Shown here: positions 1 to 3,432 of the stretch, piece after piece
Layout of the letters: the number at the start of each line of letters is the position of its first letter
Position numbering within the stretch: position 1 is the first letter of the stretch
Assembly (NCBI GenBank): GCA_024279425.1
Contig: JAJRRO010000116.1
Coordinates: 62,001-126,000, forward strand
Origin: Bacteroidota bacterium
GTDB taxonomy: Bacteria; Bacteroidota; Bacteroidia; Flavobacteriales; Flavobacteriaceae
Direction of reading: 5' to 3'
DNA length: 64,000 nucleotides
Program-made: the position numbers and the translations under genes
Notes under the pieces: model-generated
The model's input: the letters and a program-made list of their open reading frames with translations, nothing else
The model's database searches: none
What the model was told of the DNA's origin: nothing

Positions 1-1248
1 TAAGCCTTTATATTGTTTGGCATCGCGAGCTTCTTGTATAACTAATTCACTCAATGTTTTCCATTGCCGTATTAAACTTTCATGTGATATATCTACTAGT
101 TTGTCATCAAATTCACCAACATCTTCGATAACCAAAAATGAACGCCCCCCTTCATTGAACCTACCAATTATTTCAAGTAGTTTTTCCTTGGAAGTACCTG
201 TTAATTCAACGAGCCTCTTAAGCCTTACTTGTCTTCTGATTTTACGATTACTGCCATCCATAGTTGTCAACGCCCTAAATAATGTACTTGCAACTTCCTT
301 ATCTTTCTTCGACAATTTATCTAGGGCTTTTTGAGCGTGATTAGACAATGCCTTTTCTAACCCCCCAATGCCCTCGTAATCTTTAAAATCTATTTCACCT
401 TTATTCTTACTATCATTTTCATCATGCTCCCACATACACATTAGAGTATGCTGCAGAATGGGCAATTCATCTTGTGAATCTCTAAGATTATTTAACAGCT
501 TGGATGTAAGAGATGCATTGAATTTTTTTCCAGTCAATTTTGACGGACCTTCGATAACCTTTTTAAGTTGTTGACGATTTAATCGAGGTACAAGATATTG
601 ACTTTTATTCATGGCTTCAGGTAAACCATAGTATTCTGAGCAATCACCTATAAAATCTGATCTCATGGTAAAAACTATATAAAAAGGAAGCATTGTTTGT
701 TCTGCAAGTTCAAGTAAGACATTCACAAAATGGATGGCTTCATTTTTACTATCAGTGATAGTTTTGCCTGAATTTTCAGGTTTTTTCTTGGTAAAGGCAA
801 ATAATTCCTCAAACTGATCTACCAATAAAAAGAAGTTGATATTGTTCTTTTTCCAAAAAGGAATAAAATACTCCAAAATTGCATCTACCCCCTCATCTTC
901 AATTTTATGTATAAAAGATGTAATCTCATTCTTATCTGCAGGTTTTCCATCATTCTTAAGTAAAGCTTCAGCAAGATTATACATGGGCGACTCCCCTGGT
1001 TTCATAATTGAAACTTCCCACTTGTTACTATCTTCAACAAGGAATCCTCCATTTAATGCAGGTATGAGGCCTGCGCGCAATAATGATGATTTACCACATC
1101 CTGAGCTTCCTACTATTGCCACAAAATTATTGGCGTGTAATCTTTGTAACAACTCCAAGGTTTGAGTATCCCTACCAAAAAAGTATAAGCTTTCAACAGA
1201 GTGGTATGGTCTTAAGCCTACATAAGGGTTTTTTGAACTGTCAAACAT
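1..1248 (-). CDS. STAND NTPase (nSTAND1-type), N-terminal part, runs off left edge
   Basis: The reading frame opens at 1248 and is still open at base 1, giving 416 residues of a longer protein. Residues 7-25 carry the NPYVGLRPY...FFGRD opening typical of the nSTAND1 family. A Walker A motif GSSGCGKSS lies at 47-55, and a Walker B-like LLVDQFEELF at 141-150. The ATG is one base after the TIR stop codon, so the two genes are probably translationally coupled. STAND proteins are ATP-dependent sensor switches that usually end in WD40, TPR or similar repeats; that C-terminus lies outside the window. Together with the TIR and SLATT genes upstream I infer that it is the sensor of an immune or programmed-death module. 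The NTPase call is strong and the role is inference. Confidence 0.88.
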   Translation of the reverse strand, partial: MFDSSKNPYVGLRPYHSVESLYFFGRDTQTLELLQRLHANNFVAIVGSSGCGKSSLLRAGLIPALNGGFLVEDSNKWEVSIMKPGESPMYNLAEALLKNDGKPADKNEITSFIHKIEDEGVDAILEYFIPFWKKNNINFFLLVDQFEELFAFTKKKPENSGKTITDSKNEAIHFVNVLLELAEQTMLPFYIVFTMRSDFIGDCSEYYGLPEAMNKSQYLVPRLNRQQLKKVIEGPSKLTGKKFNASLTSKLLNNLRDSQDELPILQHTLMCMWEHDENDSKNKGEIDFKDYEGIGGLEKALSNHAQKALDKLSKKDKEVASTLFRALTTMDGSNRKIRRQVRLKRLVELTGTSKEKLLEIIGRFNEGGRSFLVIEDVGEFDDKLVDISHESLIRQWKTLSELVIQEARDAKQYKGL

Positions 1249-1249
1249 A

Positions 1250-2794
1250 TTATTCCCCTTTTAGGCTGTTAATAAACTTATCAAGTAGCAGACTATTCAA
1301 TTCTTCATTATTAATGACATTTATTGGTACGCCATTAACATTTGCATTTTCCTTGATTCCCAAGTCACCATCAGCTCCTTTTTGGGGGGGTGTCCTATAT
1401 ACATAAATATTTTCTACAGGACTTTCGTCGAAAAGCAGCTTATTGGTGGCCGCAGTTATACGTGATTCTATCCATTCTTTTGATGATTTACCATAAAGGA
1501 AAACCAGTTTTTTTACTTCATTCATTCTGCTCTGTAGGATTTTCCTGTTCTTGGTAGGGTCTTGTCCTAATGGGGCGTAATGGGTAATAAAATTATATTT
1601 GTCAAAAGTTTGTTGTAATTCCATTGCATATTGCTTGTCTTCCACATTGTAATCCAACAAAATGTCCAATTCTTCGTGTGAATCTACTTCATTGGTTTTT
1701 TTCAAAGCTTCTTTTTTGGCAATTAATACCTCAACAAAATCTAAAATCTCTTTGGTAAGCGTCCCCTTATTGCCGATAATGAATTCATATTCCTTATCAT
1801 TAATTGACCCTTGTTCCAACCCATTAATAAAATCTTTGTATTCCTTTGGTTCAATTTCTTCAAAATTATTTTGTGAAGACATCCATATTAATTGAGGTAC
1901 CGGGGAATCGAATGCAATTTCAATTTGTTTTTTTCGATACCAATTTTCAGAATCGCCACTTATTTCAGGACCAGTATATTGATCAAGAAGATGAATGGCC
2001 AAATTTGCATGTGAAAGTATTTCTTGCGTAGCTTGTTCATGTACTATTGACTCTTTGGCCTCCGAGCTATTAAGTATAACCTTATAACCTTTCTTCTGTA
2101 AACTGCTCATGATCATCTTACGTGTGGAGGAAAGTGAATCTGGCGCATCACCAAAATAAACCGTAAAAACATCCTCATTTTCAGTATCTACATATATTGT
2201 TTCTTCTTTTTCCTTAGTTATATTCTTAAAATCATCAAGCAGCTTACAAATACTGATTCTTAAACTCGTCATTTCCTTAATAAATGGAGTGCTATCAAAT
2301 CTTAAGGGGTTAGAGGAGCGCCAATCTTCACCCTCTTCAATTTCTTCGTGGAATCTAAATCCTTCTCGTCCTTCTAGTTCCTCGGGCCAATCCTTAAATG
2401 GCATACCAAATAGATTAACGTTGACTATTCGGGATTTATGCCCCATCTTAAGACCTTCTTTTTCTTTTTTTGCCTTGGTATAAAAAATTTCTAACTCTTT
2501 TGCACAATAGTCCGATTGTTGATAGTTCGGAGAATTAATACACAGCATTATGGCAGAATTTTTTACTCCTTCCTCGATTTTGGAATCAAAAAATTCATTC
2601 TTGTCCAACGTACGTTTATCCCACCAGATATTAATCTTTTTTTCTCCTACACGTTTTAGATCATGTTTTAAGCTCTTACGGAACATCTTCACCCAACCTT
2701 CGGAATGCAGCACTGTCATAGGGGTATTATCATCGTGTGCATAACTAATGAAAATATCATAGTCAAAATTAGTTACTGATTCCATTTTTCTCAT
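1250..2794 (-). CDS. TIR-domain protein with two further Rossmann-like regions
   Basis: The protein has 514 residues. Residues 9-150 form a TIR domain: DYDIFISYAH is the first strand, INIWWDKRTL follows, and SDYCAKELE at 94-102 places Glu100 where the NADase catalytic glutamate sits in enzymatic TIR domains. A second alpha/beta region (about 210-350, starting DVFTVYFGDAP and containing ANLAIHLLDQY) and a third (about 375-510, starting ELDILLDYNVEDKQY) both look like Rossmannoid TIR/DUF4062-like folds; these assignments are by eye. There is no signal peptide or membrane segment. The gene lies 128 nt after the SLATT gene and 1 nt before the STAND gene on the same strand. I infer an effector or signal-producing enzyme controlled by the STAND partner. 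An alternative start is Met4. Confidence 0.85.
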   Translation of the reverse strand: MRKMESVTNFDYDIFISYAHDDNTPMTVLHSEGWVKMFRKSLKHDLKRVGEKKINIWWDKRTLDKNEFFDSKIEEGVKNSAIMLCINSPNYQQSDYCAKELEIFYTKAKKEKEGLKMGHKSRIVNVNLFGMPFKDWPEELEGREGFRFHEEIEEGEDWRSSNPLRFDSTPFIKEMTSLRISICKLLDDFKNITKEKEETIYVDTENEDVFTVYFGDAPDSLSSTRKMIMSSLQKKGYKVILNSSEAKESIVHEQATQEILSHANLAIHLLDQYTGPEISGDSENWYRKKQIEIAFDSPVPQLIWMSSQNNFEEIEPKEYKDFINGLEQGSINDKEYEFIIGNKGTLTKEILDFVEVLIAKKEALKKTNEVDSHEELDILLDYNVEDKQYAMELQQTFDKYNFITHYAPLGQDPTKNRKILQSRMNEVKKLVFLYGKSSKEWIESRITAATNKLLFDESPVENIYVYRTPPQKGADGDLGIKENANVNGVPINVINNEELNSLLLDKFINSLKGE

Positions 2795-2922
2795 TGTATT
2801 TAATGAATTGAAAAGATACTAAAAAAAATACTGCAAAATTAATTAAGGACAACTGTTAAAATTCTTGACAAGTCTGTATTTCATTGTAAGTAGCAGAAAT
2901 TGATGCATCTTATACATTTACA

Positions 2923-3432
2923 TTATACAATGGATGTATCATCTATTGTATCAACTGGATCACCATCTTTTCTATTCATGATTTCATTCCAAGATGAATT
3001 TTCGCTGTTCATGATTCTTTCAACATTATGAACGAAATTTTTAAATGTAGTTCCATTTTTATCGTAGGGACTAACCGCAGTTTTATACAATATTTTTTCC
3101 CTTCGTAATGATTCGGCAGTAATTCGATAAGTAGTCCATTTTTCATGGAACTTTAATAAAGTTGAAAGTCCAGTCAACGTGGCGGTCATAACCCCCAATA
3201 AAGCGGTAACATATCGCGGCCATTCAGCATCCTCGATATCAACGCCCGAGGTAAAAGGAATCAAAGCAGCAAAAAAAATAATCAAACCATTGCTCCAAAT
3301 GTGATAACCCTTATTAATCGTACTTTTTGTACTATACCAATCAATTTGGTCATCAACTCTCTCACTTAGATATTGCTCTTCAGTCATTTTTCGTATAGTT
3401 TGGTTTGTTCTATTATCTGAGATAGAACACAT
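2923..3432 (-). CDS. SLATT/DUF4231-family two-TM protein
   Basis: This 169-residue protein carries two predicted membrane helices, around residues 45-62 (NGLIIFFAALIPF) and 72-92 (YVTALLGVMTATLTGLSTLL). A charged helix follows (KFHEKWTTYRITAESLRREK), which is typical of SLATT/DUF4231 proteins. SLATT domains were predicted from comparative genomics as membrane pore-forming effectors in nucleotide-dependent conflict systems. Met16 (MTEEQYLSERVDDQIDWY) is an equally good start, because family members usually begin near that sequence. It is the first gene of the SLATT-TIR-STAND operon and no ribosome binding site is visible. Confidence 0.8.
   Translation of the reverse strand: MCSISDNRTNQTIRKMTEEQYLSERVDDQIDWYSTKSTINKGYHIWSNGLIIFFAALIPFTSGVDIEDAEWPRYVTALLGVMTATLTGLSTLLKFHEKWTTYRITAESLRREKILYKTAVSPYDKNGTTFKNFVHNVERIMNSENSSWNEIMNRKDGDPVDTIDDTSIV

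Follow-up and report, generated by a model that had tools for sequence, protein, structure and literature searches.

A 64,000-nucleotide stretch of a Flavobacteriaceae genome (Bacteroidota bacterium, GenBank assembly GCA_024279425.1, contig JAJRRO010000116.1, positions 62,001 to 126,000; here called the window) begins with a minus-strand operon for a SLATT protein, a TIR protein, and an nSTAND1 nucleoside triphosphatase (NTPase). We found that this operon is convergent with a caspase module just outside the window and that the module carries a gene for a tandem-repeat peptide, which, on the evidence of its codons, is very probably translated and selected. We give an even chance to the view that the two linked modules act on the same event and form a composite accessory immune locus of the abortive-infection type. 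Cell death immunity in animals and plants draws on TIR, STAND, caspase, and membrane effectors, and this one bacterial locus brings them together. The repeat peptide offers a concrete and cheap handle on what the caspases of bacterial conflict systems cut.

The window operon has a 128-nucleotide (nt) gap between the SLATT and TIR genes and a 1-nt gap between the TIR and nSTAND1 genes; an earlier note on this DNA had given the same three minus-strand genes and spacings, and its coordinates were borne out. The family model scans covered five proteins of the locus, and other flanking open reading frames (ORFs) were judged by eye. The SLATT_1/DUF4231 gene (2923..3432, minus strand) encodes 169 amino acids (aa) with two hydrophobic segments, and its product exceeded the cutoffs (in parentheses) of Pfam DUF4231 with 78.2 bits (24.7), Pfam SLATT_1 with 48 bits (26.3), and NCBIfam SLATT_1 with 113.6 bits (41). 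The TIR gene (1250..2794, minus strand, 514 aa) matched Pfam TIR_2 at 48.4 bits (cutoff, 28). The nSTAND1 gene occupies window positions 1..1248 on the minus strand and continues outside it to C140:60984 (L003:10984-13248), so the N-terminal 416 of its 754 aa are within the window; off-window coordinates are those of contig C140, also handled as L003 (C140:56047 is L003:6047), and L and G numbers are our handles for loci and genomes. Its product matched Pfam nSTAND1 at 309 bits (cutoff, 27.1), with the domain at residues 8 to 428 and one hydrophobic segment at ~483 to 501, and reading of the sequence found Walker A (GSSGCGKSS, containing K53) and Walker B (FLLVDQFEELF) intact. The C-terminal part, modeled on the L029 homologue, is predicted to be a helical region followed by a small beta domain. 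The TIR residue Glu100 was unchanged in 40/40 aligned homologues. Thus, the two-transmembrane (two-TM) SLATT protein, the TIR Glu100, and the nSTAND1 Walker motifs of the earlier note all held, and the TIR protein, by its above-cutoff domain and catalytic glutamate, is assigned to the TIR NADase family and is predicted to cleave NAD+. The note's description of this protein was incomplete: the gene product consists of three alpha/beta domains, namely, the TIR, a DNPH1/DRHyd-like domain (207 to 358), and a third domain (~376 to 512) to which no fold was assigned. Because the homologue alignments begin at Met4 of the TIR protein and Met16 of the SLATT protein, the likely starts shift to 2785 and 3387 (leaving 154 aa for SLATT).

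The adjacent module, which lies beyond the letters available to the earlier note, has at its core a caspase/DUF676/TPR-S gene (C140:58464-60704, plus strand) whose three domains scored 73.7, 33.9, and 50.7 bits, all above the cutoff. Its caspase domain has the His-Cys dyad with an Asp two residues ahead of the Cys, and its top-scoring solved relatives are metacaspases. An Asp before the catalytic Cys sets a preference for lysine and arginine. At an E value of 1e-30 or better, the caspase alignment matched 44/397 genomes of the family, 32 of them at full length, and 8/395 genomes of the phylum including our own, with 6 of the 8 covering the esterase/TPR-S part only. We examined 32 caspase loci, from 31 of the 32 full-length genomes plus the truncated G367 (G232 was left out as a 3-kb contig). 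The caspase catalytic residues were retained in 31/31, and the esterase serine was lost in 5/32 (L032, L147, L161, L162, and L169), suggesting that proteolysis is the constant activity. Upstream lies a gene for a membrane TPR protein with three hydrophobic segments (C140:56371-58371, plus strand); the gene is intact in 30/32 loci, with the L151 copy 5.7 kb off, is fragmented in L167, and is missing from L169, which stops at a contig edge. Pfam TPR models rose above the cutoff in the L029 homologue of this protein, not in our copy, and its middle part may resemble TolB-like cyclase-associated domains. In L143 (6854-9109), the gene is longer (751 aa), and by eye its first residues resemble the N-terminal end of a class III nucleotide cyclase domain.

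The tandem-repeat peptide gene (C140:56047-56262, L003:6047-6262, minus strand; 71 codons with KSKTGGI units) is divergent from the membrane TPR gene. A repeat peptide was present in 31/31 evaluable caspase loci, L169 being cut off. In 29 loci, its gene and the membrane TPR gene point away from each other; in L151 it lies beside the caspase, and in L167 it is a single motif. The single-copy peptides of L159, L162, L164, and L167 were recognized by eye. The peptide is short and hydrophilic, its units mostly span 7 to 16 residues and approximate, though not invariably, [S/A]-K-[P/D/T]-G-x-x-[I/V]-x-P-K, and each examined locus has its own version next to its own protease. Its start codon lies 84 to 130 nt from the annotated membrane TPR start in 28/29 loci and 264 nt from it in L143; our own spacing of 84 nt becomes 108 nt if the TPR start shared by homologues is used. 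Between neighboring units, 423/457 codon differences were synonymous in the peptide frame (16 arrays). Counted in each ORF's own frame over the repeat cores, 524/549 were synonymous in 23 arrays, a core definition that leans toward synonymous changes and a count that left out the 6/29 peptides without an array of at least 50% match. The mirror frame on the opposite strand scored equally in a few arrays (L029, L141, and L145), not overall. As a control in the same loci, a divergent repeat ORF was found upstream of 21/30 genes of the membrane TPR type versus 3/298 other genes. Because nearly all of the codon differences are synonymous and the control counts differ in this way, we consider the peptide very probably a translated and selected gene. 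Peptide-like repeats also occur in the linker of a one-TM protein in five loci (L150, L152, L153, L155, and L157), and in L152, KDGAGIIPKDGAGIIPK is found in both the one-TM linker and the divergent peptide.

Several observations tie the two modules together. In all four close Flavobacteriaceae trio loci, the caspase module is adjacent to the SLATT-TIR-nSTAND1 operon and convergent with it. L025 and L029 (G303 and G103, of one genus) are 83% identical in SLATT, 84% in caspase, and 65% in the membrane TPR protein, whereas their TIR proteins are only 38% identical (the L025 TIR is 55% identical to ours) and fall in separate well-supported groups of the tree. The TIR-nSTAND1 cassette thus appears, from these comparisons, to have been exchanged in place between fixed flanks. 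In 21/32 loci, the next gene after the caspase, in the same orientation, encodes a different TIR, the first such gene starting within ~310 nt; three of these TIR calls were confirmed by Pfam and the remainder by a hidden Markov model (HMM) built from those three. Together with the four convergent cassettes, 25/32 caspase loci have a TIR in this slot. In addition, an HMM built from the C-terminal 85 residues of 20 effectors of caspase loci matched the C termini of nSTAND1 proteins at an E value of 3e-5 or better in L024, L025, L029, L032, L034, L037, L038, and L051, and our own nSTAND1 at 0.008; the genomes of L034, L037, L038, and L051 encode the caspase elsewhere. A gene for a one-TM protein precedes the caspase in 17/32 loci and in 0/7 SLATT loci, so SLATT may take that place. 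As a separate observation, L142 (G289) has a different effector set in the same slot, at ~2.4 to 8 kb: after the caspase come patatin-like and peptidoglycan-binding genes, a SLATT gene on the opposite strand, and a SIR2-TIR gene, the last lying ~4.6 kb past the caspase.

The earlier note had proposed the trio as an immune system, with conserved co-occurrence of its genes as the check. We searched 299 genomes of the GTDB family Flavobacteriaceae for the TIR protein and found it in full in 6, our own included, and matched in any form in 11. With an alignment of the six full family TIR proteins as the query, we then surveyed the best 80 of 208 relatives in the GTDB collection. The TIR gene was followed by nSTAND1 on the same strand in 63 of these 80 loci, with a median gap of -4 nt (an overlap) and 60/63 gaps between -60 and +150 nt. 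The other 17 comprised 1 fusion, 7 loci at a contig edge, 7 in which the gene caller had missed the TIR gene (6 of which still had an nSTAND1 match), and 2 without a nearby nSTAND1. Hosts of the listed pairs include Bacteroidota, Desulfobacterota, Acidobacteriota, Cyanobacteria, Nitrospirota, Verrucomicrobiota, and Pseudomonadota. Among these loci, apparently complete nSTAND1 genes ranged from 680 aa (L026) to 2167 aa (L080), a spread consistent with one unchanging switch joined to different sensors; in L033, no more than a 341-aa fragment is visible, and the L025 gene is interrupted. In the Eudoraea-labeled metagenome-assembled genome (L025:11547-14080 and L140), the interrupted nSTAND1 is present as two overlapping ORFs with some unknown bases, so this copy may be broken or misassembled.

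The conserved unit is therefore the TIR-nSTAND1 pair, and SLATT is an optional partner. Among the listed loci, SLATT stands beside 7/63 named pairs. It adjoins the pair in the Flavobacteriaceae (our own locus, L025, L029, and L032) and lies upstream of TIR, with the trio order kept, in the cyanobacteria L062, L070, and L089 (DUF4231, 97.8 to 108.3 bits; cutoff, 24.7). In L067 (Paraburkholderia), it is downstream of the pair. When the presence of SLATT was mapped onto a quickly built tree of 68 TIR proteins, it required 5 changes, and well-supported branches carry at least 4 of these; the count does not distinguish gains from losses. The trio thus probably arose more than once, and this recurrence favors a functional link even though SLATT is not essential to the pair. 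SLATT matched 16 of the 397 family genomes, 7 of them at >190 bits; all 7 have a caspase gene within ~10 kb, and TIR-nSTAND1 adjoins SLATT in 4 of the 7. The proposal therefore stands as a conserved, accessory set of conflict type, but not with the trio as its unit, and the closely related SLATT genes keep company with the caspase more constantly than with TIR-nSTAND1. Of the nine weaker SLATT matches, we viewed the neighborhoods of five by eye; in three, SLATT adjoined a patatin-like gene together with another conserved gene, and in two it had no assignable neighbor.

The site itself is variable. By eye, the locus sits between EF-G-like and cold shock-like genes (window 1 to ~5100 and L003:3031-5130). 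The same site holds two small genes in the congener G258 and an unrelated ~12-kb cluster plus two small genes in G032, and the TIR, caspase, and SLATT queries had no match in either of these sampled congeners. The different or small content of the congener site indicates that the gene set is accessory.

The note's working model, with sensing by STAND, action of TIR on NAD, and membrane damage by SLATT, is plausible. For the composite locus, we propose that nSTAND1 would be an NTP-dependent, membrane-anchored switch whose activation would cluster the co-encoded TIR protein. TIR would then cleave NAD+ via Glu100, yielding depletion or an ADP-ribose-type signal, and SLATT would be a membrane effector. 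We infer that killing most likely comes from TIR NAD+ cleavage under nSTAND1 control, together with SLATT at the membrane. In the second module, a protease of metacaspase-like, lysine/arginine type would share one chain with an esterase and a TPR-S sensor, and the membrane TPR protein would be a further component. The likeness to metacaspases, the Asp, and the dedicated lysine-rich peptide together suggest a protease/substrate or protease/decoy pair. The Lys/Gly-rich peptide would likely be a protease substrate, a decoy, or a multivalent ligand that the caspase arm cleaves or by which it is governed, and the TIR-nSTAND1 cassette would occupy the slot used by ordinary TIR effectors in other copies of the module. 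A more tentative extension is a previously undescribed peptide-gated caspase/TIR immunity, in which the peptide is a dedicated substrate, decoy, or multivalent scaffold whose state would determine the release of an interchangeable TIR effector, here the TIR-nSTAND1 cassette with SLATT; the linker repeats in five one-TM proteins would fit a peptide that imitates a cleavage site. This order of signaling is part of what we infer.

Several points weigh against a composite immune locus. All of its support comes from sequence, and TIR relatives were absent from 50,697 phage records, with plasmids giving only 2 partial ones. The modules are convergent and not cotranscribed, and few independent events may underlie the Flavobacteriaceae trio, since the seven high-scoring SLATT genomes may be one clade. 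No TIR occupies the slot in 7/32 caspase loci (L141, L142, L143, L149, L159, L161, and L162). The C-terminal domain does not track the caspase cleanly: L024 (Pareuzebyella) has the domain and no caspase match, and a caspase is encoded in the L027, L028, and L031 genomes with no C-terminal domain detected on their nSTAND1. Most pairs in the 80 listed loci lack both SLATT and this caspase within the fetched flank, and flanking genes appeared ordinary by eye, with no known defense island recognized.

Some of these points would also be expected if two independent conflict systems shared an insertion hotspot, were neighbors by chance, and worked separately. That most listed TIR-nSTAND1 pairs have no such caspase nearby, that the caspase loci mostly have other TIRs or none, and that the site varies in congeners all favor such a hotspot. 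However, adjacency and convergence in 4/4 close trio loci, the cassette that differs between matching flanks in L025 and L029, the C-terminal domain common to caspase-locus effectors and nSTAND1, and the presence of SLATT of this clade near the caspase in 7/7 genomes weigh against chance neighbors, which we regard as possible but less likely than the composite locus. It is possible, rather than probable, that the TIR signals instead of killing through NAD+ depletion, producing an ADP-ribose-type messenger that its DRHyd-like domain, TPR-S, or SLATT would read, and that SLATT does the killing; with SLATT beside so few of the named pairs, though, the TIR must usually act without it. A developmental or stress-signaling role (regulated lysis, gliding, or colony behavior) seems improbable to us. 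Flanks that by eye resemble ordinary metabolism and information genes would suit such a role, and signaling at the cell surface is conceivable for the peptide and the membrane TPR protein, but the spread is patchy (TIR in 6/299 and caspase in 44/397 family genomes, and neither in the two sampled congeners), and exchanged cassettes with variable effectors are typical of conflict systems.

We also compared the locus with published systems. Pairings of TIR with SLATT, of caspase with alpha/beta-hydrolase, and of nSTAND1 with TIR have been mentioned individually in print (PMC7159879, PMC8195603, and PMC10907252). No description of the SLATT-TIR-nSTAND1 trio or of the repeat peptide was recognized in the open-licence literature searched. 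We therefore treat the trio as a variant on a known theme and the peptide-caspase module as the bolder claim. The portions available of Kaur et al. 2020 (eLife 9:e52696, PMC7159879) describe NTP-dependent conflict systems, including GAP1-N1/DO-GTPase, VMAP, iSTAND, and EACC1-caspase, and predict that SLATT damages the membrane or forms a pore on a signal. These systems share with our locus TIR, two-TM SLATT by nucleotide-related effectors, caspase with alpha/beta-hydrolase, STAND NTPases, and a membrane link, whereas no GAP1/DO-GTPase, MoxR-vWA, VMAP, or EACC1 was recognized in our locus (five proteins scanned, the rest by eye), and neither a TIR-nSTAND1 pair of our type nor a tandem-repeat peptide is among those descriptions. 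Neither GAP1 nor DO-GTPase genes were found in the five scanned proteins, other flanking ORFs being judged by eye only. The counterinvader systems with nSTAND1 in PMC8195603 (eLife 2021 10:e70394) include TIR among their fused effectors, with the effector or adaptor at the STAND N terminus, whereas our TIR is encoded upstream in a gene of its own and has two additional domains.

Plant TIR-NLRs and the TIR-APAZ protein of SPARTA are fold matches to our TIR and share its catalytic Glu. In those systems, the TIRs assemble under the control of a switch, either an NTPase or an Argonaute. Our locus differs in that the TIR and the NTPase are separate proteins, leucine-rich repeats and Argonaute are absent, and there is an extra DRHyd-like domain. 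Our caspase shares the dyad and the preceding Asp with bacterial caspases and metacaspases and differs from other bacterial caspases in its DUF676 esterase and TPR-S fusion and in having a repeat-peptide gene in every evaluable locus. Known systems considered as identities for the locus were set aside. The likeness to Thoeris is limited to a TIR domain and weak PADLOC ThsB matches (21.6 and 17.7 bits); none of the five scanned proteins matched PADLOC ThsA, and the TIR partner in 63/80 listed loci is nSTAND1. Single-protein STAND defense of the Avs/bNACHT type does not fit an effector on a separate gene, and PADLOC gave the 754-aa protein short P-loop matches only. An EACC1-caspase system was also rejected (NCBIfam caspase_w_EACC1, 57.1 bits; cutoff, 140).

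Two minor features complete the picture. Between the caspase and nSTAND1 genes lies a 74-aa PGDYG-like ORF (C140:60724-60948, plus strand) that scored 16.8 bits, below the cutoff of 27. The source genome also has a second TIR gene (G000:C127, L004:2017-3477) on a 3.7-kb contig, where it adjoins a transposase-like fragment; by eye, its product has one TM segment and an OmpA-like C terminus.

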